NCBI RefSeq assembly: GCF_007743815.1
Contig: NZ_CP036265.1
Span: 4,285,823-4,349,822, forward strand
Length of the DNA: 64,000 bases
Direction of reading: 5' to 3'
DNA from: Alienimonas californiensis
Lineage (GTDB): Bacteria > Planctomycetota > Planctomycetia > Planctomycetales > Planctomycetaceae
Part shown: positions 14,133 to 27,351 of the stretch, piece after piece
Position numbering within the stretch: the stretch's first letter is position 1
How the letters are laid out: each line of letters starts with the position of its first letter
Notes under the pieces: model-generated
Databases searched by the model: none
What the model was told of the DNA's origin: nothing
The model's input: only the letters and a program-made list of their open reading frames with translations
Made by a program: the position numbers and the translations under genes

Positions 14133-17100
14133 GTGACGAACCTGACCACGCCCGCCGAACCGCACGCCGATCCCGCCGCCGCGCCGCCGACGGCTTCGCT
14201 GACCGACGCCTGCGATCGCATCTTGGGGGCGTTGAACTTTTCGTCCGGGGGGAACGACGGCCCACTGGCGGTCGGCTTCTGCGAACTGGCCGCCGCGCTG
14301 ACGGCGGCCGGCGCCGGCTCCGTTCCGCCCTACCCGCGCGTTCTGGCGGCCCTGTCGGAGCGGTTGGACGTGCTGAGCCGGGAACGGGCCGCCTTTGCGG
14401 ACGCCTCCCAGGCGCGAACGGCGCTGGAGGGGCTGGCTGCCCTGCCGGGGGACTACCGCCGCTACCACCGCGATCTGCTGCCGGATCTGTCGGAGGCGGA
14501 TCTGTCCGCCCCGCTGTTCCTGGCCGCGGCGGCGGACGCCCTGTTGCAGGTCGGCCAGCAGGCGGACGGTTCGGCCGGCGGGGCGGGCGTCGTACGGGCG
14601 GCGGTGCTGCGGTTGAACGACTACGTCGGTCACCGCCCGATCCCGGTGCTGGAGGGCGGCGCCCGCAGCGAGGTGCATCCCCACGAACGGCACCGCCCCG
14701 TGCCGCTGTGGCGGCCGGAGGTCGGCAGCGCCCCCGGCCCGACTGCCGAACTACTCGACGCCACGCTCGGCCTGCTGCGGCAAACCCCCGCCGACATGCT
14801 GGACGAGGCGGAGTTCCACCCGGACCGCATGCGCGAGCTGGCCCTCGACCTGCGGACCTACGACGACCGCCACCCCGTCTACAAACGCACGAACTACCTG
14901 TTCGGCGAATGGGACCCGGAGAGCCACCGGGCCGGCGGCCTCTCCCGGCTGACGGATGAGAACGACGGCGACGAGGACGCCGAAGGCGGCGACTACACTC
15001 GGTTCGTGCTCCGCCGGCCGGTGCTGGGCGCGATCCAGCGTTGGGTGGAACGCGACGGCGACGGCCCGCCGGCGGAGCGGCTGTTCGACGGCTCCGCGGC
15101 CCTCGCCGGCACGGTGCTGATGGCGGCGGCGGTCTCCGGCCGGGACCCGCACGCCCACGACTCGGCGGCCTCCCTGATGACGCTGCTCCCCCGCATCGCG
15201 GCGCTGCGGGACCGCTTCTACGAGTGGCTGATCGACTCCCAGACCGGCGAACGGGCCGAACGCCTCGCCGAGGTGACGAAGCGAACCCGGCAGCCCTTCG
15301 GCCACGTCCGGCAGTACCTCAACCTCAGCCTGTCGGACCTGACGGCCCGGCAGGCACAGGGGCGGACGGTCGCCACCCAGTACGCCCGGCTCGGTCAGCC
15401 GGACGCCGCCCGGGAGGAGGCCGCCGACAACCCCAGCGCCGCCGGCCGTCTGGAGGCGGGGATTGAATGCGCCCTCGCCGAAGGCTTCGCCGCGGCGAAG
15501 GACCCCGCCGGTCGCCTGCGGGACGCCGCCGACCGCTGGGACGCCGCCGCCGGGCTGATCCGCCGCGGCGTCGACTGCGGATTGCTGCCGGACCCGTGGA
15601 CGGTCATCGGCTATCAGGGCCAGTACCCGCTGTTCCGCGCCCGGGAGGACAGTCTGCCGGACCCGCGGCTGGAAACCCTGATCGAACTGGTCGGCGAGAC
15701 GCTGCGGCTGGGCGGCGAAGTCCGGATCGAATCGGCGGCCCGGGGCGTTTCCGCGGACGATCCCGCCCCCGCCGCCGGCGAAGCGGGCGAGGCCGGCGCC
15801 GGCGTGGGCTTCGCCGCACGATTGGAGCGGTTCGCGGACTGGTGGGACCGCTTCGCCACGACCGCCGTCGACGGCCTGCCGGCGGTGCAGGGGGCCGCGG
15901 CCGTGGAGAGTGCCGCCCGTGTCGCCAGCGTGCTGGGCGAATGGCACGACGCCGGCGGGGCCGACGCGGGGCTGGGCTTCTGGGCGAAGCGGCTGGACGA
16001 ACTGGACCGCGGGGCCTCGCTGGCCCGGGCGGCCGATTTGCTGCTCCGCACCGACCAGCCTGCCGCCGCGGCGGGCCTGCTGTACTACTGGGTCGGCGAA
16101 ACGGAGAAGTTCGGCGCCGGGCCGGAGGGCAACACCGTCTTCCATCTGCTCCGCCGCAGCCTGCTCGGTCAGCTTTCCGCGGCCGGCGAGGCGGGCGTCG
16201 ACGGCGTCGCCGAACCGGCGGCGAAGTTCTTCGAGCGGCTCGAACCGAACACCGAGCACCTCGCGCTGGAACTGCCGGACGGCCAACGCGCCGCCCCCCG
16301 CAAGGGCGGCGACGCCCTGCTGATCGGCGAGGACGACGACCCGGACGGCGGCGACGAGGAAGAGGGCGACGAGTTCGCCGCCGCCTACGAGGGCGTCACC
16401 TTTCAGGACAGCACGGACGACGGCGTCGAGGGCGATCTGCTGGACGGCCCCGGCCCGCCGGCCGACCTGGACGAACTGCTGCCCGAACTGGTTCGCGGCT
16501 GGGACGTGCCGATCCGCTACCGGGAGGCGGTCGCGGCCCTCTGGCGGGACGCGATCGCCGCGGTGCCCCCGCCCCCCGCGGCCGGCCCCGACGCCCCGGC
16601 GGAGGCCGGCCCGTTCGTCGACGTGCTCCGGCACTGGACCGGCGAACTGGACCGGCTGCGGGATGAACTCACCGCCGCCGCGGCGCTGATTCACGAACGG
16701 CCGGTCGGCGCGGCGACCGGCGACGAGATCGAAAATATGCTGCGGGACGAGCGCCTGCAGATCCGGCACCGCCTCGTGCACCGGTTGATCGGGGCGGCGG
16801 CGGAACTGACGCTGACGACCCGTCTGGCCCGCGCCCGCCTCGACGACTCCGCGGAGACCCCCGCCGCGAGCGCCCTCCGCGACGACGAAGACGACAGTGA
16901 CGGCGACGGCGACGGCGACGGGGCGTCCGGCAACGCGGAACCCGGCGCCGACGAGTTCGACGTCACGGCTCACCGCCTGCTGGCCGCGGTGCAGCGGCGG
17001 GATCGGGCCGCCGCCCGCCGCACCTTCGCCGCCTTCGCCGCCAAACTGCGGCGGCGGCGCCTGCTGTACGTGCCGCCGGACCGCGGCGGGGACCCCGTCG

Positions 17101-18356
17101 TCGCCGCCCGCAGCCGTGCCGACTGGCGCCTGCTGGATCACCTCGCCGTCGAACTGCCGCGGTTGGGGCTGATCTCTCAGACGCACCGCCTACTCGCCGC
17201 GGTGCTGCACGCCGAACGCGGCAGCCGGATCGGCGGGCCGGTGGTGACGGAGTTCGATCGCCTGTTCCGCCGGGCCCTCAGTGCCGCGACCGCCGCCGCG
17301 GTGCGGGCGACGGCCCCGCCGGATCGCCTCGCCGCCCCGAACTTCGCCCGCATCCCCCCCGATCCGCGGGAGAGCGGCCGCCGCAGCCTCTACGAAAGCC
17401 CGATCGAGAGCCGCGTCCGTACCTTCTCCCGTCTGCTGCGGCCGTTCCGGACCCTCTGGATCGGGCACAGCCGCACCCTGCGGCTCAGCGTCGCCGAGAA
17501 CCTCCGCGACCCCGGCCTGCGCCGGGACCTCAAGGACTTCATCGCCAAGTACGGCGGCGAACTACTGCACGCCCGCAACCTCACGCTGGGGCACGTGCGG
17601 ATGGTGCTGCACACCGGCGTGGACCAGTACCTCGACGCGCTGGTCCGCAACCCGGATCCGCTCAAACCGAATACGTTGGTGAACGATCTGCTGGATCGCC
17701 GGATCGAGCGCCCCCAGGCAGAGAAGCTGCTCGCCCTGATCCTGCAGATCGTGGTGGAAAAGGTCGATCGCTGGATCGAATACAACTCTCTGACGACCCG
17801 CAGCGACTACGGCGAGCGGTTCTACTGCCTGCTGGACTTCCTGCGGGTGGAGGTCGATTACGACCGGGACGAATGGCATCGCGTGCCGCGGGCGGTGATC
17901 TTTCGGGCGCTGGCCCGCACCGGCGAACTGGACTTGGCGGACCGCTGGCTCCGCATGATGCGCCGCGACACCCGGCAGCGGGCGGAGATGCACCTCGTCC
18001 GGCTCGCCGACCGGGAGGAGCACTACGGCGTCCGCCTGCCGGGGGTGCGGGACAAGCTGGAGGAACGCCTCGTCGGCCCGCTGATCCGCGAACGGCTGTA
18101 CGCCCTCGTCAAACCCAGCCTGAAGGGCGGCCACGGCCGGCCCGCCCGGGCCTGGTTCGCGGAGTTGCGCGGCGAGGTCGACCGCCTGCGGGAACGCAGC
18201 CGCCCCAGCGGCCCGGAGCCGCCGGAGTGGCTGGACGGCCTGGAAGACGAAGTCAGCCGCCAACTGCGAGCGACCGCCGACCCGGTCCGCCTCCCCCCGG
18301 CGCCGCTGGCCTACGGCGATCTCGTCGGCCAACTGCGGCGCCTGAACCGCAAGTGA
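14133..18356 (+). CDS. Large uncharacterised cytoplasmic protein (1407 residues)
   Basis: I do not recognise this protein. It starts at a GTG in the divergent gap after tyrA. There is no signal peptide or membrane segment. Composition is Ala-, Leu-, Asp- and Arg-rich and largely helical. Two strongly acidic linkers stand out: residues about 730-770 (GEDDDPDGGDEEEGDEF) and about 915-935 (a run of Asp-Gly repeats), which split the protein into three blocks. The last ~320 residues look best conserved in character: fewer indel-like low-complexity stretches and aromatic positions such as RPFRTLWIGHSRTLRLSVAE, DQYLDALVRNPDPLKPNTL and DYGERFYCLLDFLRVEVDYD. A helical-repeat scaffold is possible. No nucleotide-binding loop or metal motif was found. 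Confidence 0.85.
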   Translation: MTNLTTPAEPHADPAAAPPTASLTDACDRILGALNFSSGGNDGPLAVGFCELAAALTAAGAGSVPPYPRVLAALSERLDVLSRERAAFADASQARTALEGLAALPGDYRRYHRDLLPDLSEADLSAPLFLAAAADALLQVGQQADGSAGGAGVVRAAVLRLNDYVGHRPIPVLEGGARSEVHPHERHRPVPLWRPEVGSAPGPTAELLDATLGLLRQTPADMLDEAEFHPDRMRELALDLRTYDDRHPVYKRTNYLFGEWDPESHRAGGLSRLTDENDGDEDAEGGDYTRFVLRRPVLGAIQRWVERDGDGPPAERLFDGSAALAGTVLMAAAVSGRDPHAHDSAASLMTLLPRIAALRDRFYEWLIDSQTGERAERLAEVTKRTRQPFGHVRQYLNLSLSDLTARQAQGRTVATQYARLGQPDAAREEAADNPSAAGRLEAGIECALAEGFAAAKDPAGRLRDAADRWDAAAGLIRRGVDCGLLPDPWTVIGYQGQYPLFRAREDSLPDPRLETLIELVGETLRLGGEVRIESAARGVSADDPAPAAGEAGEAGAGVGFAARLERFADWWDRFATTAVDGLPAVQGAAAVESAARVASVLGEWHDAGGADAGLGFWAKRLDELDRGASLARAADLLLRTDQPAAAAGLLYYWVGETEKFGAGPEGNTVFHLLRRSLLGQLSAAGEAGVDGVAEPAAKFFERLEPNTEHLALELPDGQRAAPRKGGDALLIGEDDDPDGGDEEEGDEFAAAYEGVTFQDSTDDGVEGDLLDGPGPPADLDELLPELVRGWDVPIRYREAVAALWRDAIAAVPPPPAAGPDAPAEAGPFVDVLRHWTGELDRLRDELTAAAALIHERPVGAATGDEIENMLRDERLQIRHRLVHRLIGAAAELTLTTRLARARLDDSAETPAASALRDDEDDSDGDGDGDGASGNAEPGADEFDVTAHRLLAAVQRRDRAAARRTFAAFAAKLRRRRLLYVPPDRGGDPVVAARSRADWRLLDHLAVELPRLGLISQTHRLLAAVLHAERGSRIGGPVVTEFDRLFRRALSAATAAAVRATAPPDRLAAPNFARIPPDPRESGRRSLYESPIESRVRTFSRLLRPFRTLWIGHSRTLRLSVAENLRDPGLRRDLKDFIAKYGGELLHARNLTLGHVRMVLHTGVDQYLDALVRNPDPLKPNTLVNDLLDRRIERPQAEKLLALILQIVVEKVDRWIEYNSLTTRSDYGERFYCLLDFLRVEVDYDRDEWHRVPRAVIFRALARTGELDLADRWLRMMRRDTRQRAEMHLVRLADREEHYGVRLPGVRDKLEERLVGPLIRERLYALVKPSLKGGHGRPARAWFAELRGEVDRLRERSRPSGPEPPEWLDGLEDEVSRQLRATADPVRLPPAPLAYGDLVGQLRRLNRK

Positions 18357-19661: not shown

Positions 19662-19799
19662 GGATTACCGACGGGGCGTGAAAAGGGGGACGCCGGACGA
19701 TACCTGGCAAAGAACCTCGGCGTTGCAGCGAATCCCGCGGAAACTTCGAGAGTTCCGAACGGGTATCCTTGTTTGACCGCCCCGTTTCGCCCCGCCCCC

Positions 19800-21443
19800 G
19801 TGTCGTTCGCCCGCCCCTCCCGCCGCTGGCTCGCTCTTGCCGCCGTGGGGGCGGTCTGTGCGGCGACCTTCGCCGCCGCGGCCCGCGACGTCTCGCCGGG
19901 ACCGCCGCCGCTGAGAGACGCTCCAGACCCCGCCGCGATCGACGGCTTCTTTCACGAACGGTGGACTGAAGAGGATGTCGAACCGGCCCCGGCCGCGGAG
20001 GAGCTGCTCGTCCTGCGGCGGCTCTCGCTGGCGTTGCACGGCACGATTCCCTCGCTGGAAGAGGTCCGCGCTTTCGAGGCGGACGCCCGCCCGGATCGGC
20101 TGACGCGCTGGACCGACCGCCTGCTCGCCGATCGCCGGTTCGCGGAGTACTGGGCTGAACGCCTCGCCCGGGCGCTGGTGGGGGTGCACGAGGGGAATCT
20201 CGTGCTGTTTCGCCGCGACCGCTTCAAGGCGTGGCTGGCGGACCGCCTGCACCGGGACGCCCCGTGGGACGAGACGGTCCGCCGCATGATCGCCGGCGAC
20301 GGCATATGGACCGCCAGGCCGGAGGTGAACTTCGTCACCGCCGAGGTGGAGAACGATCGGCTGGACCGCGAAGCCCTCGCCGGCCGCACGGTGCGGGCGT
20401 TCCTGGGGCAGCGGATCGACTGCGCCCAGTGCCACGACCACCCCTTTGCGGAGTGGTCGCAGGGCGACTTCGAGGGGCTCGCCGCGTTCTACGGCCGCAC
20501 GGCCTACGGTCTCACCGGCGTGCGGGAGCGGACGCGGGAGAAGGGCGGGCCGAAGGAGTTCGCCGTGCAGGACCGCGAAACGCTGGAGGACCGCGTCGTC
20601 GCCCCCGCCGTGCCCTTCGCCCCGGAGCGGTTGCCGGCGGACTACGAGGCTGATTCGACCGACCGCCGGCGGGCCCTGGCGGCGTGGGTCACGCACCCGG
20701 ACAACCGCCGCTTCGGCCGGGCGACTGCGAACCGGGCCTGGGGCCTGCTGTTCGGCCGGGCCTGGAAGGAGCCGGTGGACGATCTGCCGGACCCGGAACC
20801 GCTGGAACCGGGCGAAGCCGGCGACCTGCTGGACCGGCTCGCCGCGTCCTTCGCCGGACCGGGGGAGTACCGGCTGAAACGACTCATCCGCACGATCGCG
20901 GCGTCACGGGCGTTCCGGCTCTCGTCGTCGGCGCCGGGGACGGAGGAAGCGGAGTACGAGCGCCTCGCCCGGGCCGGGGCCGTCTTCCCGCTGACCCGGC
21001 TGCGGCCGGAGCAGATGATCGGGGCGATGACGCAGGCCGGCAGCGTGAGGACCCTCGACGCCGACAGCCCGCTGTTCGTGCGGGCGATCCGGTTCTTCCG
21101 CACCGTCGACTTCGTCCGCAACTACGGCGATCTCGGCGAGGAAGAACTGATTCGCGAACCCGGCACGGTGCCACAGGCCCTGTTGCGCATGAACGGCCGC
21201 CTGCCGCGGGAGATCGCGAGCGCCCAGCCGCTCGGGGCGACGGCCCGGCTGAGCTGGTTCGCCGGCCCGCCGCCCCGGCAGGTCGAGGCGGCGTTCCTCT
21301 GCACGCTCACCCGTCGGCCGACCGAGGCGGAGACCGCCGCCCTCGCCGCCTACTACGAGCCGGGCGAAGGCAAAGCGAAGGCTCCGATCGAGGACGTCTA
21401 CTGGACCCTATTCAACGCGCCGGAGTTCTCATGGAATCACTGA
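19800..21443 (+). CDS. DUF1549/DUF1553 domain protein (planctomycete PSD1 type, no cytochrome domain)
   Basis: The chosen GTG start gives 547 residues beginning with a signal-like segment (RRWLALAAVGAVCAATFAAA). The frame is open much further upstream but that part reads through the divergent gene. The DUF1549 region follows (about 45-265), with the hallmark QRIDCAQCHDHPFAEWSQGD, a CxxCH-like haem-type motif near residue 212. The DUF1553 region (about 285-545) contains TANRAWGLLFGRAW. Such proteins are very abundant in planctomycetes, are nearly always paired with a DUF1501 gene and are thought to be exported; their biochemical role is not settled. Family members often carry an extra N-terminal cytochrome module, absent here. 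The DUF1501 gene starts 13 bases before this stop. Confidence 0.9.
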   Translation: MSFARPSRRWLALAAVGAVCAATFAAAARDVSPGPPPLRDAPDPAAIDGFFHERWTEEDVEPAPAAEELLVLRRLSLALHGTIPSLEEVRAFEADARPDRLTRWTDRLLADRRFAEYWAERLARALVGVHEGNLVLFRRDRFKAWLADRLHRDAPWDETVRRMIAGDGIWTARPEVNFVTAEVENDRLDREALAGRTVRAFLGQRIDCAQCHDHPFAEWSQGDFEGLAAFYGRTAYGLTGVRERTREKGGPKEFAVQDRETLEDRVVAPAVPFAPERLPADYEADSTDRRRALAAWVTHPDNRRFGRATANRAWGLLFGRAWKEPVDDLPDPEPLEPGEAGDLLDRLAASFAGPGEYRLKRLIRTIAASRAFRLSSSAPGTEEAEYERLARAGAVFPLTRLRPEQMIGAMTQAGSVRTLDADSPLFVRAIRFFRTVDFVRNYGDLGEEELIREPGTVPQALLRMNGRLPREIASAQPLGATARLSWFAGPPPRQVEAAFLCTLTRRPTEAETAALAAYYEPGEGKAKAPIEDVYWTLFNAPEFSWNH

Positions 21444-22717
21444 TCGCTCCGCCGCCCTTCAGGTTGAGCCGCTTCTCGCCGGGCCGGCGTTCCGTGCTGG
21501 CCGCGGCGGCGTCGTTGGGGCTCTCCTTCGCCCTGCCGCCGCTGACCGGCCGGGCCGCCGAGCGGCGGGGGGCGGAGCGGGCGAAGAGCCTGTTGATCCT
21601 GTGGATGCAGGGGGGGATGAGCCAGTTGGAGACGTTCGACCCGCACCCGGGCACGGCGATCGGCGGGCCGACGAAGGCCGTGAAGACCTCGCTGCCGGGC
21701 GTGCAGTTCGCCGACCTGCTGCCCCGCACCGCGGAGCGGGCGGACCGGCTGAACGTCGTGCGGTCGCTCACCAGCGCCGAGGGCGACCACGAACGGGCGA
21801 CCTACTTCCTCAAGACCGGCTACCGCCCGGACCCGACGGTGCAGCACCCCTCCGCGGGGGCGGTCGCCGCCTACGCGTCCCCGCCGGAGGGGCTGGAGAT
21901 CCCGGCTCACGTGGCCCTCAACCCGGCCCAGTGGGCGCCGCGGGGCGGCTACCTCGGGGCTCGGTTCGACGCCTTCCAGGTGCACGACCCCGGCAGGCCG
22001 CCGGCGAATCTGCGGGACTGGGCCGCCCCCGCACGGCGGGAGCGGCGTCTGGCCGGGTTGGACGCGCTCTCTCGCTCCTTCGCCGCCGGCCGGCCGGGCC
22101 AGTTGGCCCGCAGCCGACACGACGAGGCGACCGAGGAGGCGCTGGCGATGATGGACTCCCCGCAGGTCGGCGCCTTCGAGATCGACGAGGAGTCCGCCGC
22201 CCTGCGGGCCGCCTACGGCGACACCCGCTTCGGCCGCGGCTGCCTCGTCGCCCGCCGGCTGATCGAGACCGGCGTACGAGCGGTGGAGGTCACGCTGAAC
22301 GGCTTCGACACCCACGCCGACAATTTCGGCGGCATGGCCACGCAGGCGGAGAGCCTCGACCCGGCCCTCGCCGCCCTGCTGGACGACCTGACAGCCCGCG
22401 ACCTGCTGCAAAGCACGGTCGTGCTGGTGATGACGGAGTTCGGCCGGACCCCGCGGATCAACCCGCTCGACGGCCGCGACCACTGGCCGAAGGGCTTTTC
22501 CTGCCTCGTCGGCGGCGGCGGGCTGGCCTCCGGCCGGGTGATCGGCGCCACGGACCCGGCGGGGGAGAAGGAGCCGACCGATCCGGTCCGCGTGCAGGAT
22601 CTATTCGCCACCGTTTTCGACACGCTCGGGATCGACCCGGAGGAGGAGGAGATGACGCCGATCGGCCGTCCGCTGAAGCGGGCGGAGGGCGCTCCGCTGG
22701 CGGCCCTGCGGGTCTGA
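21431..22717 (+). CDS. DUF1501 protein with Tat signal
   Basis: The 428-residue protein starts at the ATG overlapping the DUF1549 gene. Its N-terminus has a twin-arginine signal (SPGRRSVLAAAASLGLSFAL, Arg19-Arg20), indicating export of a folded protein. The DUF1501 fold, related to the sulfatase/alkaline-phosphatase superfamily, is shown by LLILWMQGGMSQLETFDPHP, then GGYLGARFDAF, then VEVTLNGFDTHADNFGGMA and VVLVMTEFGRTPRIN, with DGRDHWPKGFSCLVGGGG near the C-terminus. The Asp/His residues in these motifs would bind a metal. The substrate is unknown. The pairing with a DUF1549 protein is the standard planctomycete arrangement. Confidence 0.93.
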   Translation: MESLIAPPPFRLSRFSPGRRSVLAAAASLGLSFALPPLTGRAAERRGAERAKSLLILWMQGGMSQLETFDPHPGTAIGGPTKAVKTSLPGVQFADLLPRTAERADRLNVVRSLTSAEGDHERATYFLKTGYRPDPTVQHPSAGAVAAYASPPEGLEIPAHVALNPAQWAPRGGYLGARFDAFQVHDPGRPPANLRDWAAPARRERRLAGLDALSRSFAAGRPGQLARSRHDEATEEALAMMDSPQVGAFEIDEESAALRAAYGDTRFGRGCLVARRLIETGVRAVEVTLNGFDTHADNFGGMATQAESLDPALAALLDDLTARDLLQSTVVLVMTEFGRTPRINPLDGRDHWPKGFSCLVGGGGLASGRVIGATDPAGEKEPTDPVRVQDLFATVFDTLGIDPEEEEMTPIGRPLKRAEGAPLAALRV

Positions 22718-22843: not shown

Positions 22844-24112
22844 GTGCTGAAACTCCTGACCTCCCCCGCGACCGTCGCGGCGGCGTTGACCGCCCTGTTC
22901 CTCGTCGCCTGCGGCGACGGCGGGCCGCTGGCGCATCCGCTGATCACCCGCTACGCGCTCGGCCACCCGCTGGCGGTGGCGACCGTCGGGCTGTTCTTCG
23001 CGGGCGCCGCGGCCGTGCTGATGCGGGCGGTCGGCCATCGGGCGGAACGCCGGGCCGTCGCCGCGTTGGCCATCTGCCGATTCCCGACCACCGCCGACGC
23101 CCTCGCCTGGGCCGGCGAATCCCGCCTCGCCGCCCCGTCCCGCGTCCGCGGACTGCTGACCGATCCGCCCCCCGCCGACCGGGCGGAGACGCGGCTCGGC
23201 GCCCTCCACGAATCCGCCGCGGACCGCCTGCACGACGGCTATGGCCTCGTCCGCACGATCACCTGGGCGGTGCCGATCCTCGGCTTCCTCGGCACGGTCG
23301 TCGGCATCACGCTGGCAATCGCCGGCATTGATCCGGACGGCCTCGGCGAATCGCTGGGCGAGGTGACGGGCGGCTTGGCGGTGGCGTTCGACACCACGGC
23401 CCTGGCTCTCGCCCTGTCGCTGGTGTTGGTCTTCGGCACCCATGCGGTGCAGGGGGCGGAGCTGTCGAACCTGGAACGACTGCGAGACGTCGCGTTCCGC
23501 GCGCTGTTGCCGCTCTGCCCGGCGGCGGAGGAGGACCCCGTGCGGGCCGCCGCCGCCGACGTGGCGGAACTGATGCGCCGCCGGGCCGGCGATCTCGCCG
23601 AGGTGCACGCCGCCGCCTGGCGGGGCAGCTTGGAAGAGATGCGGTCGGCGTGGGCGGAGACGCTGACCGAAAGCCGAGCCGCCTTCGCCGCGGGCATCCG
23701 GGCCGAGACCGCCGCGGCCGCGGAGGCCGCCGAACGCCGCCAACAGGCCGCCGGCCAGGAGTTCCTCTCCGCCGTGCGCGCCGCGACGGACGCCATGACC
23801 GGGGCCGTCTCCCGCTGGAGCGACGGCTTCGAGGAGGCCGCCGCCGCGGACGTGGATCGCTCCGACCGGCTCCGCGATCTGGCGGACTCCCTCGCCGCGA
23901 TCGCCGAGCGGACCGAGGCGCATTCGATGATCGCCGGCCGGATCGACGCCGGCTTGGCGACCGTCAACGAGGCCGGCCACTTTGAGGAAGCGGTGCACTC
24001 GCTGACCGCCGCCGCCCACCTGCTGACGATGCGCCTCGGTGGCGTGCCGGGGCAGTCGGCTCCGCAGCCGACGAGCGCGCACGTCGTGCCCTCCCAGAGG
24101 CGCGCCGCCTGA
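22844..24112 (+). CDS. MotA/TolQ/ExbB-type proton channel protein
   Basis: The 422-residue protein starts at a GTG. It has a first membrane segment near residues 8-24, a second near 42-60, then a cytoplasmic stretch. The family core follows: ITWAVPILGFLGTVVGITLA (about 140-160) and LGEVTGGLAVAFDTTALALA with its continuation (about 170-205). The spacing and the Gly-Leu-Leu/Phe-Gly-Thr-Val motif match ExbB/TolQ. The C-terminal ~210 residues form a long, Ala/Glu-rich coiled coil much bigger than in ExbB. In this family the channel works with ExbD-like proteins to turn proton motive force into work on the envelope; the next two genes encode such partners. The gene ends in a GGCGCGCCGCCT motif seen at two other gene 3' ends here. 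Confidence 0.88.
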   Translation: MLKLLTSPATVAAALTALFLVACGDGGPLAHPLITRYALGHPLAVATVGLFFAGAAAVLMRAVGHRAERRAVAALAICRFPTTADALAWAGESRLAAPSRVRGLLTDPPPADRAETRLGALHESAADRLHDGYGLVRTITWAVPILGFLGTVVGITLAIAGIDPDGLGESLGEVTGGLAVAFDTTALALALSLVLVFGTHAVQGAELSNLERLRDVAFRALLPLCPAAEEDPVRAAAADVAELMRRRAGDLAEVHAAAWRGSLEEMRSAWAETLTESRAAFAAGIRAETAAAAEAAERRQQAAGQEFLSAVRAATDAMTGAVSRWSDGFEEAAAADVDRSDRLRDLADSLAAIAERTEAHSMIAGRIDAGLATVNEAGHFEEAVHSLTAAAHLLTMRLGGVPGQSAPQPTSAHVVPSQRRAA

Positions 24113-24128
24113 GGGCGGCGGCGAAAGC
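24099..24128 (+). repeat. Partial copy of a 32-nt motif at gene 3' end
   Basis: GGCGCGCCGCCT at the end of the ExbB-like gene is followed by a diverged continuation (GAGGGCGGCGGCGAA). It matches the 5' half of the 32-nt motif found at 31651 and 41353. The copy covers the last codons (Arg-Arg-Ala-Ala, stop), as does the copy at 41353. The match in the second half is weak, so chance in GC-rich sequence is possible. Confidence 0.35.
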
Positions 24129-24136
24129 TCTGACCC

Positions 24137-26200
24137 GTGCGACGCGCCAGCGGTCCGAACGTCAGTCTCTTTCCGTTCCTGACGGTGCTCCTGTGCGCCA
24201 GCGGGACGTTGATCGTGTTGTTGATCGCGCTCTCCCAGCACGTCCGCGACACGCCCCCCGCCCCCACTGCCGCGGCCGAACCGCCGGAGCCCGCTGCGCC
24301 GGTCGTCACGGTGACGGAGCCGCCGCCGGAACCGTTGCTCGCTCCGGTTCCCGCCCCGCCGCCGGAGCCGATCCTACCAAAGCTTCCTCCCGGACCGCCG
24401 CGGGTCGTGCGACTGCCGTACGAGGGTCCGGACCCGGGCGAACCGCTGCGGCGCCGCTTGGCGAGCGCCCGGACCGCAGCGGCGGAGCTGACGGCTCGGC
24501 TCGACGCGGCGACGCTGCGGCGTCGGGATGCGGAAGCGAAGATTGAAGCGGCCCGGTTCGCCGCCGCCGAGGCGGCGGCCGCCGTCGCCTCCGCCGGCGC
24601 CCGGCTGGCGTCGTTGGAACAGGTTCGGGACAGCGGCGCCGCGGCCGCGGCCCGGGCGACCGCGGAGGTGGCGGAGTTTCAATCTGCCGTCGCCGCCGCA
24701 AAGGAAGACGACTCCCCCCGCGCCCTGCTGCCGGTTGTCCGCACGCCGGACGGCGTGACCGCGGACCGGCCGATCTTGGTGGAATGCATCGCCGCCGGGG
24801 CGCGGTTGCGGCCCTACGGCGTCACGGTGCCGGTGGGCGCGGCGGGACCGGCGCCGACCGGCGTGGCGCCCGTGGTGGCCGGCGTGCAGGCCGCGTCCGC
24901 GGCGACCGGGGAGAGCTACGTCCTGCTGATCGTGCGGCCGGACGGCCTGCCGGCCTTCTATCAGGTCGCCGGCGCGCTGACCGCGGCGGGGATTCGGTTC
25001 GGCTATGAACTGCTCGACGAGGATGCGGAGATCGCCTGGGGCGAAGCGACGCCGGAGACTTCCGGAACGGTCGCGGTCGCGGTGCGGGACGCGCTGCAAC
25101 GCCTGCCGGCTCCGCTACCGGGCGAGGACGACCCGCGGTTCGTCGGCGCCGGCTTCCCGGGCGCGAGCGGACCGGCGGGTCAGGGCGGCGGCGGTTCCCC
25201 GCCCGGCCTCCCCGGCCCCGGTCTGCCCGGCGTCGCCGGGGCCGGCCGGCCCGGTCCGCCCGGCGGCGCGCCGCTCAGCGGGGCGCCGGACGATCCCTTC
25301 GCCGGGGGCCGGGCGGGGGCCGCTGCGGCCGGTCGTCCGGACCTCTCGAAGGCCTTCCCCGCGGGCTCGCCGGCGGATCGCTTGAATATCATCGGCTCGA
25401 CGCCCGCCGTCGCCGCCCAGCCGTTCAACCCGGCGGGTGGACGATTCCCCGCGGCCGCCGGCGGTTCCGGCGGCGTCACGCCTCCCGGCGGCGCCGCGAT
25501 CGGCGCCGCCGCTCCCCCGCCGGTTCCCGCCGGCGCTGACGGCGTGGCCCCGGGCGAGGGCGTTGCGGGAATGAACGCTCCCCCCGCTGACGCCCGTCCC
25601 GCTGGCGCCCGTCCCGCCGGCGCAAGTCCCGGGGGCGCCAGTCCCGAGGGCACTGCCTCCACAGATTCGCCCGCGGAGGCGGCGATGCAGGCGCTCGCCG
25701 CTCCGGCCACGGGCGCCGAGACGGCCGACGGCGGCGCGTCCGGCGGTTCGTCCAGCGCCTCGGCGGGCGGTTCGTCCAGCAGTTCAGCGGGCGGAGCGTC
25801 CGGCAGCGGCGGGGCGGCGGGCGGAGCCAGCGGCGGGGCGGCGGGCGGCGAGCCCTCCGAGGGCTCGAAGAGCCGCTCCTTCGGCGAACGCGGCGGGACG
25901 CCGGAGCGGGACACCCGCATCCGCTTTAACGTGCGGACGCCCGCCACGCTGGCCGCCTCTCACCTCTGGATCAACGGGCACTGGGCGCCGCTGCCGGACG
26001 ACAACGACAGGCTGATCGCCACCCTGAAACAGGAGTTCGATCGCCGTCTCGCCGATCGCGGCGAACCGCCGACCGGGTTCCGCTGGAGCCCGGAACTGCG
26101 TCTGAGCGTCCGCCCCGAAGGCCGCGGACAGGTGGAGCGATTCATCGAAGCCGCGGAGCGGGCCGGGGCGACCGTAAAAATTGAAGGCGGAACGCGATGA
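24137..26200 (+). CDS. Membrane-anchored ExbD-like protein lacking the membrane Asp, with long Gly/Pro/Ala linker
   Basis: The 687-residue protein starts at a GTG 24 bases after the ExbB-like gene. One N-terminal membrane segment (residues about 9-33, NVSLFPFLTVLLCASGTLIV) has the ExbD layout, but Thr16 sits where ExbD proteins have their functional Asp. Then come a Pro-rich linker (36-85), an Ala-rich coiled coil (about 95-190) and a periplasmic-type domain (about 195-330) with ESYVLLIVRPDGLPAFYQVA. About 260 residues of Gly/Pro/Ala/Ser low complexity follow, with collagen-like GPP and GLP triplets and Gly-Gly-Ser-Ser runs. A C-terminal domain (about 594-687) completes it. The long linker could span the periplasm. 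Function is inferred from position between ExbB-like and ExbD-like genes. Confidence 0.82.
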   Translation: MRRASGPNVSLFPFLTVLLCASGTLIVLLIALSQHVRDTPPAPTAAAEPPEPAAPVVTVTEPPPEPLLAPVPAPPPEPILPKLPPGPPRVVRLPYEGPDPGEPLRRRLASARTAAAELTARLDAATLRRRDAEAKIEAARFAAAEAAAAVASAGARLASLEQVRDSGAAAAARATAEVAEFQSAVAAAKEDDSPRALLPVVRTPDGVTADRPILVECIAAGARLRPYGVTVPVGAAGPAPTGVAPVVAGVQAASAATGESYVLLIVRPDGLPAFYQVAGALTAAGIRFGYELLDEDAEIAWGEATPETSGTVAVAVRDALQRLPAPLPGEDDPRFVGAGFPGASGPAGQGGGGSPPGLPGPGLPGVAGAGRPGPPGGAPLSGAPDDPFAGGRAGAAAAGRPDLSKAFPAGSPADRLNIIGSTPAVAAQPFNPAGGRFPAAAGGSGGVTPPGGAAIGAAAPPPVPAGADGVAPGEGVAGMNAPPADARPAGARPAGASPGGASPEGTASTDSPAEAAMQALAAPATGAETADGGASGGSSSASAGGSSSSSAGGASGSGGAAGGASGGAAGGEPSEGSKSRSFGERGGTPERDTRIRFNVRTPATLAASHLWINGHWAPLPDDNDRLIATLKQEFDRRLADRGEPPTGFRWSPELRLSVRPEGRGQVERFIEAAERAGATVKIEGGTR

Positions 26201-27351
26201 GTCGGCGCCGGCACGAAGACATGGACGCCGGAAGCGACAGCTTCCTGGACGTCCTCGCGAATCTGGTGGGCATCCTCGTGGTGCTGGTGGTGATGACCGC
26301 CCTGCAGGCCGCCGCCCGCCCGGCGGCGTCGATCGCGGAGGCGGACGCCCCGGCGCCGGAGAGTGCGGCGCCGGAGATGGCCCTCGAACCGATCGTCTCG
26401 GAGCCGGTCGCTTTGGAGCCGCCCGCCATGGTCCGGGTTCCCCTGATCGCCCCGAAGCCGAACGTTGTGTTTGAGCCGACGCCCCCGCCGGTCGTGCCGG
26501 CGTCGCTGGAGCGGGACGTCGCCGCCGCGGAGGCCACTCTAGCAGTGCTCCGCCGACGGGTGGACGAGTCGGCGGCGGCTCACCTGATGGCGGCGGAGAC
26601 GGCGGAGCGGGAACGCCAGCGGGCGGCGGCCGCCGCGGCGGAATTGCAGCGCCGCCGGGCCGCGATGTCCCAGATTCAGGCAGACGCCGCCGCCGCCGCC
26701 CGGGCCGCCGAGGCCGCCCGGCTGGACCGCGATCTCTGGGCCGCCAAGGCCGCGGCGGCGGGCGACAAGCCGCCCGAGCGCTTCGAGCATTCCGCCCTGC
26801 CGGTCGGACGGCGGGTCACCGGGGACGAACTGCACTTCCGCCTCGTCGGCGATCCAAACGACCCGAAGGGAGGCCTGGTGCGGCCGGTGCCGATCGACGA
26901 CCTCACCGCCAAGCTGGAGCAGGACATCCAGCGGCGCCGCAATCAAATCATGGACCGCGGCGGCTACGACGGGACCGTCGGGCCGATGTCCGGCTACGTG
27001 ATGAACTACCGGATCGAACGCGAAACGGACGACGTACTCGACCGGGTGCGGTCCGCCTCGCCCGGGATCGTGCGGTTCCGACTGGCCGGCTGGACGCTGG
27101 CGGACGCCGGGGACGATCCCTCGGCGACGCTCGACGCGGCGCTGGCCGAGGGGTCGGACTTCCGCTTCCTGCTGGCGACCGCCGGACCGGGGGCGACGGC
27201 GACGTTCTGGGTGGCGCCGGAGGCGTTCGCCGCCTTCCGGGCTCTGCGAGCAGAAGCCCGCGCCGCCGGCCTGTACGTCGCCGCCCGGCCGCTGCCGAAC
27301 GGCGTCCCCATCAGCGGCAGCCCGGACGGCAGCCGCTCCGTCGCCCAGTGA
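26197..27351 (+). CDS. ExbD-like membrane-anchored protein with the conserved membrane Asp
   Basis: The 384-residue protein overlaps the previous gene by four bases (ATGA). A single N-terminal membrane segment, SFLDVLANLVGILVVLVVMT, carries Asp18 at the place where ExbD/TolR proteins have the aspartate needed for proton-driven work. It continues with a Pro/Ala-rich linker (40-105), an Ala/Arg coiled coil (about 108-185) and a C-terminal periplasmic domain (about 200-375). The latter contains FRLVGDPNDPKGGLVRPVPI and, near the end, FRFLLATAGPGATATFWVAP, which parallels the VLLIVRPDG segment of the preceding protein. The two are thus probably diverged paralogues forming one complex with the ExbB-like channel. 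What the complex drives is not visible. Confidence 0.84.
   Translation: MSRRRHEDMDAGSDSFLDVLANLVGILVVLVVMTALQAAARPAASIAEADAPAPESAAPEMALEPIVSEPVALEPPAMVRVPLIAPKPNVVFEPTPPPVVPASLERDVAAAEATLAVLRRRVDESAAAHLMAAETAERERQRAAAAAAELQRRRAAMSQIQADAAAAARAAEAARLDRDLWAAKAAAAGDKPPERFEHSALPVGRRVTGDELHFRLVGDPNDPKGGLVRPVPIDDLTAKLEQDIQRRRNQIMDRGGYDGTVGPMSGYVMNYRIERETDDVLDRVRSASPGIVRFRLAGWTLADAGDDPSATLDAALAEGSDFRFLLATAGPGATATFWVAPEAFAAFRALRAEARAAGLYVAARPLPNGVPISGSPDGSRSVAQ

Follow-up and report, generated by a model that had tools for sequence, protein, structure and literature searches.

A planctomycete ExbB-like ring protein encoded with two paralogous ExbD-like proteins, only one of which carries the membrane aspartate

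Background

In models of 5:2 ion-driven motors, two identical shaft aspartates alternate, and in E. coli ExbD the membrane aspartate lies within the sequence PFIDV. An ion path formed by Ser/Thr residues of the ring and an aspartate of the shaft is established for MotAB, ExbBD and ZorAB (PMC9389320, PMC11890865). In the 5:2 complex ZorA-ZorB of Zorya (PDB 8VVN, 8VVI), ZorB is the only shaft protein and its aspartate is conserved, as described in PMC11890865. AglRQS of Myxococcus gliding is built from one ring protein and two different shaft proteins, AglQ and AglS, both of which are reported to have a conserved aspartate, and PMC9389320 states that it is unknown whether they pair as hetero- or homodimers.

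A conserved trio of one ring protein and two shaft proteins, one of which is devoid of the proton-carrying acid, is a natural test of how an ion-driven motor works. A family that mostly has one shaft aspartate, and sometimes two, would let one ask whether both are needed, and it would also address the step size, the number of ions per turn and whether ring residues share the job. No paper describing such a half-charged planctomycete trio was found among open-licence papers searched by title and the start of the abstract.

Results

Gene organization and distribution

The window analyzed is a stretch of 64,000 nucleotides from Alienimonas californiensis (contig NZ_CP036265.1, positions 4,285,823 to 4,349,822), whose genome of 5.48 Mb consists of one contig. 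Positions 22844-27351 of the window contain three genes on the forward strand in the order B, D1 and D2. B (22844..24112, +; 422 aa, GTG start) encodes a ring protein of the MotA/TolQ/ExbB family with a long C-terminal helical tail, D1 (24137..26200, +; 687 aa, GTG start) encodes an ExbD-like protein without a membrane aspartate, recognized by its profile-profile match to D2, and D2 (26197..27351, +; 384 aa, ATG start) encodes an ExbD-like protein with this aspartate. The start of D2 overlaps the stop of D1 as ATGA.

Nearly all relatives with named records are planctomycetes. Relatives of B were found in 59/59 related genomes, some of them being ordinary ExbB paralogues, and the D1 profile matched in 57/59, part of these matches being weak. 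B, D1 and D2 are adjacent in most loci, and most genomes of the window's family have the trio, so its absence from related genomes, a possibility raised by the initial annotation, was not what we observed. When 294 genomes of the phylum were searched, all D2 matches at E < 1e-40 fell within the window's own class. Among 40 loci chosen by similarity to B, two (L068 and L070) have B with neither D1 nor D2 alongside.

The ring protein

B passes the Pfam MotA_ExbB model (PF01618) with 42.9 bits against a cut-off of 22.9. When the B family profile was compared with solved structures, the best matches were ZorA of Zorya type I and type II (E 1.9e-9 and 5.9e-8). The PADLOC ZorA2 model gave E 1.9e-6 for B, and the score of B against the NCBIfam ZorA model was 16.8 bits, which is below the cut-off of 100. 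The conserved Ser/Thr residues of TM2 and TM3 are present in B as T151, within GFLGTV, and as T184/T185, all of which are invariant (A3). The threonine pair is part of the TM3 segment Asp183-Thr184-Thr185 (AFDTT; 23390..23398, +, codons read), in which D183 is conserved in at least 90% (A3). In the B-chosen loci, this column was Asp in 36/40, Gly in two and Asn in two, and in ZorA it is Leu or Trp according to the profile alignment.

The two ExbD-like proteins

D1 and D2 did not reach the cut-off of any Pfam or NCBIfam family. At E up to 1, neither D1 nor D2 matched any of the Pfam ExbD models, PF02472 included, or any ZorB model. A scan of the whole genome with PF02472 gave eight places, none of which is within the trio. 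D1 and D2 are paralogues of each other, as the profile-profile comparison gave a probability of 98.0% and E 2.4e-13 over 300 columns.

The AlphaFold2 models of D1 and D2 (overall pLDDT 66 and 82, respectively) have matching predicted layouts. D1 has a predicted transmembrane helix at residues 13-38 (24173..24250, +) and a predicted long helix or coiled coil at residues 102-189 (24440..24703, +; pLDDT about 90), and D2 has a predicted transmembrane helix at residues 14-40 (26236..26316, +), which carries the motif SDSFLDxxANxVGIL with its invariant columns, and a predicted long helix or coiled coil at residues 102-188 (26500..26760, +; pLDDT about 95). D2 is thus a protein with a single membrane helix carrying an aspartate, as in ExbD and TolR. 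In D1, the coil is followed by a first periplasmic domain (residues 213-321; 24773..25099, +), for which ExbD (8pek, Z 7.7) and TolR (5by4, Z 7.6) ranked at the top of the VIA-align fold comparison, with unrelated folds reaching up to 7.2. D1 continues with a low-complexity and probably disordered tether (residues 332-589; 25130..25903, +; pLDDT mostly < 50) and, in the model, a second folded domain (residues 595-683; 25919..26185, +), for which ExbD (8p9r, Z 6.2) ranked amid several alpha/beta folds; D1 also contains a Pro-rich segment. The alpha/beta domain at the C-terminus of D2 (residues 205-384; 26809..27348, +) had no clear structural match. Foldseek at E 0.001 yielded nothing for the D1 or the D2 model, and because the best VIA-align Z for D2 was 5.6, the fold of this domain was left unnamed. 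Of the features noticed in the initial annotation, the long coiled coil is a prediction of the models rather than an observation, and the low-complexity part of D1 is the segment modeled with low confidence.

Asymmetry of the membrane residue

The profile-profile alignment places FLDV of D2 on FLTV/FLAV of D1, so that Asp18 of D2 (codon GAC, 26248..26250, +; SDSFLDVLANLVGIL) and Thr16 of D1 (codon ACG, 24182..24184, +; SLFPFLTVLLCASGTL) share a column. This agrees with the initial reading of the two segments as equivalent, and the conserved helix faces correspond as well (S15-D18-N22-G25 in D2 and P13-A/T16-C20-G23 in D1). In the 40 neighborhoods picked by similarity to B, the D2 residue was Asp in 30/30, and the D1 residue was non-acidic in 38/38 readable cases (35 Ala and 3 Thr). 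The distinction between one ExbD-like subunit with the membrane aspartate and one without it is therefore real and conserved across these loci. Of the two residues whose conservation had been proposed for examination, the aspartate is conserved and the threonine is not, since it is neutrality rather than Thr that is kept in D1. Thr as the functional residue of D1 was accordingly rejected, Ala being the usual residue.

In a wider set, removal of 14 duplicate rows left 108 D1 rows, 13 of which had no readable motif; one of these 13, L065, has Thr within FPVLT, which the search pattern overlooked. The 95 readable non-redundant loci had Ala (82), Thr (4) or Asp (9), and thus 86/95 had no membrane acid in D1. 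The corresponding D2 figure, Asp in 107/107, is biased because loci L071-L150 were gathered with D2 patterns including DSFLD, and the 30/30 from the B-chosen set is the unbiased figure; three of the 110 D2 rows were unread, namely L149 (DSILD) and L104 and L126, in which the N-terminus is absent. An acid at equal depth in D1 of the window, which would have spoken against the asymmetry, was looked for and was absent, and the membrane helix of this protein contains no acid. A misalignment concealing an aspartate was rejected, as the helix core of D1 has no Asp or Glu in the loci of the non-Asp type, and as some lineages do have Asp in the aligned column. Neutrality is specific to D1 because the canonical ExbD proteins of the window genome keep the aspartate in 6/6 cases with a readable membrane motif, which form three tandem pairs; this count omits two further PF02472 hits whose motif was unreadable.

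Two side observations concern these proteins. Residue 14 of D2 (26236-26238) is a second, nearly invariant aspartate located one helical turn before Asp18 (DxxxD), and it is also found in the paralogous trios described below; it may only cap the helix. In the window genome, a canonical ExbB gene is accompanied by a tandem pair of ExbD genes near each of 1.29, 2.85 and 3.89 Mb (L208-L213), every one of these ExbD proteins having Asp, and planctomycetes may commonly have hetero-ExbD sets.

Co-variation of the D1 and D2 spans

The span was defined from anchor to anchor, as the count of residues separating the membrane residue from the first domain motif. It is 195 in both D1 and D2 of the window, and over 85 loci the two spans were correlated with r 0.88, or 0.84 when one very long outlier was left out. 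Phylogenetic contrasts of the spans gave r 0.81, and 0.60 without the largest tenth, with 55 contrasts of the same sign and 19 of opposite sign. The control comparisons gave lower values: rho was 0.22 for the D1 span and the C-terminal length of D2, 0.30 for the D2 span and the rest of D1, and 0.18 for the B tail and the D2 span. The length of the Pro-free run, which had been considered as a measure of a matched coil, was uncorrelated between D1 and D2 and was set aside in favor of the anchor-to-anchor span.

Residues of the ring and the shaft

When the D1 residue and the B TM3 residue were paired in the 108 non-redundant loci, the combinations were Ala-Asp (70), Thr-Asp (4), Asp-Asn (8), Ala-Gly (3), Asp-Asp (1) and Ala-Asn (1), the remaining 21 lacking one residue or both. 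B proteins of the Asn type form one clade (12 rows; node value 100), and the D1 rows assigned to them have Asp in 8/9, the ninth, L100, having Ala. L100 and L101 were paired with a B located elsewhere in the same genome and not adjacent. On the D1 tree, the combination of D1 with Asp and B of the Asn type is seen in four positions: L074/75/76/79/83 (97), which are nested next to the Ala-bearing L094/L105; L145, which groups with L062/L064 (a set with 100); L117, beside L111 (95); and L101. The independent-pairs test had four pairs, of which 2-3 were in favor of the association and almost none against, and this number is too small for significance. B is not a strict compensator of D1 because both neutral-neutral and acid-acid pairs exist: a neutral D1 is accompanied by a non-acidic B as Ala/Gly in L062, L064, L129 and L253, as Ala/Asn in L100 and L242, and as Ser/Asn in four loci of the second trio described below, and both D1 and B have an acid in L149 and L225.

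Paralogous trios and a family without B

Two further trios of planctomycetes, named trio-2 and trio-3 here, share with the trio of the window the B-D1-D2 order and paralogous shaft pairs. Trio-2 (L216-L223, L226-L232, L235 and L245-L250) extends to further families of the phylum (f46 and f54). Unlike the trio of the window, it has Ser in D1 (20/20 readable), and its ring protein has a zinc-ribbon-like N-terminus (CPxCGxxLKV); its D2 has Asp in 17/17 readable cases, its B residue is Asp in 13 and Asn in 4 of the 17 loci in which B and D1 were both read, and its D1 and D2 spans are also correlated (r 0.83, n=10). The more distant trio-3 differs from the trio of the window in having Asp in D1 where readable (L225, L234 and L237); it also has Asp in D2 where readable (L233 and L234), and L225 and L234 have Glu and Ile, respectively, as the B residue. 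The asymmetry, which had been noticed in a single case, thus recurs in a second paralogous trio, but it is not universal, as other lineages have Asp in both subunits. Because D1 of the distant trio-3 has Asp as well, the presence of Asp in both shaft subunits is, judged from these sequences, probably the older state and the loss in D1 derived.

In the seven genomes of family f2 (L189-L195), the periplasmic parts similar to those of D1 and D2 are kept, the motif aspartate is gone from both proteins, and no B of the trio family was found in the fetched stretch. This is as expected if the aspartate of D2 serves B. The D1 membrane helix of f2 retains a Glu near its start in 7/7.

Discussion

Several features are new here: the matched layout of D1 and D2 and the co-variation of their spans, the TM3 aspartate of B and the Asn-type clade mostly accompanied by Asp in D1, the second (Ser/Asp) and third (Asp/Asp) trios, and the B-less family in which the aspartate was lost from both proteins. 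The trio resembles several known systems without coinciding with any of them. The B profile best matches ZorA, through TM2, TM3 and the long helical cytoplasmic tail, but Zorya has one shaft protein where the trio has two different ones, its ZorA has Leu or Trp where B has Asp, and it is a scattered defence island, whereas the trio is part of most genomes of the window's family. B shares the Pfam family of the ring proteins ExbB and TolQ, and the first domain of D1 ranks the periplasmic domains of ExbD and TolR first, by the narrow difference from unrelated folds given above; in contrast to ExbD and TolR, D1 and D2 are both outside the Pfam ExbD model and have much longer predicted coiled coils, and D1 has no aspartate. 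AglRQS likewise has one ring protein and two different shaft proteins, but with Asp in both, whereas D1 is without Asp in the window and in most of the readable loci. At the level of sequence, the trio makes a case for a shaft that is heterodimeric, a point that PMC9389320 does not decide for AglQ/AglS.

We lean, by a little, towards the trio encoding a motor related to the 5:2 ion-driven motors, with a single ion-carrying carboxylate in its shaft. Five B subunits would surround a D1-D2 heterodimer (5:1:1), Asp18 of D2 would be the sole ion-carrying carboxylate of the shaft, and D1, whose residue is small and neutral (Ala or Thr, and Ser in the sister trio), would take the other shaft position. 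The conserved TM3 aspartate of B beside the threonine pair may provide the carboxylate missing from D1. Ions passing between B and D2 would make the ring rotate or rock relative to the matched D1-D2 coiled coil. This coil, with a predicted length of 87-88 residues (about 13 nm), would offer folded heads to the cell wall or the outer membrane, the second head of D1 being on a long flexible tether. The pairing of D1 with D2 side by side in the shaft is supported indirectly by their paralogy, their modeled layout and the co-variation of their spans; this co-variation could also be explained by two homodimers fitted to one envelope. Any direction, step size or load ascribed to such a motor would be a matter of inference.

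Alternatively, D2 homodimers might form the shaft as in ExbB5-ExbD2, with D1 docked outside the ring as a transducer similar to TonB or TolA that carries force outward. TonB-type partners without Asp are known, and the Pro-rich segment, long tether and second folded domain of D1 would suit this role. We nevertheless consider it unlikely, as the membrane helix of D1 is homologous to that of D2 at the shaft positions, Asp returns in the D1 column in some lineages and is present in D1 of trio-3, and the matched spans are expected of a shaft subunit rather than of an outside helix. It is still less probable that B is shared between two alternative complexes, active D2 homodimers and ion-dead D1 homodimers with a regulatory or structural role. 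The matched spans would then need an extra reason, such as a common envelope distance, and a D1 homodimer would be without a shaft acid in 86/95 readable loci; there is a single B in the one operon, which is compatible with sharing, and for AglQ/AglS this question is likewise left undecided in PMC9389320.

The persistence of the D1 and D2 periplasmic parts in f2, where B and the motif aspartate are missing, could suggest that the complex has ceased to be an ion motor and that D1 and D2 are mainly struts spanning the envelope. Where B remains, however, the aspartate of D2 (30/30) and the GT and TT motifs of B are invariant, which implies selection on the ion path, and of the explanations weighed here we give this one the least credence. 

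An extension of the hetero-shaft motor, in which the second carboxylate would be in the ring (B Asp183) and not in D1, is consistent with the repeated association of the Asn-type ring with Asp in D1, but we hold it only tentatively and regard it as rather doubtful. If true, it would amount to natural charge bookkeeping between the ring and the shaft of a 5:2 motor.

A search for conserved neighbors in 110 loci found no recurrent neighbor that accounts for function. The leading upstream neighbor, divergent in 34 loci, was X, a 1407-aa protein without a Pfam match, which in the window (14133-18356, +) is on the same strand as the trio with other genes in between. X was rejected as an obligate fourth component, because among the 52/59 related genomes that carry it are those of family f3 without a convincing D1. 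Clusters of X, D1 and D2 in which the ring gene is not adjacent were seen in L086, L097, L100, L103 and L106, and in G034, which is the same record as L100, the sole B-family match found sits elsewhere and is of the Asn type. Immediately upstream of the trio in the window are DUF1549/DUF1553 and DUF1501 genes (19782-22717, +), and a minority of the relatives have similar genes close to the trio.
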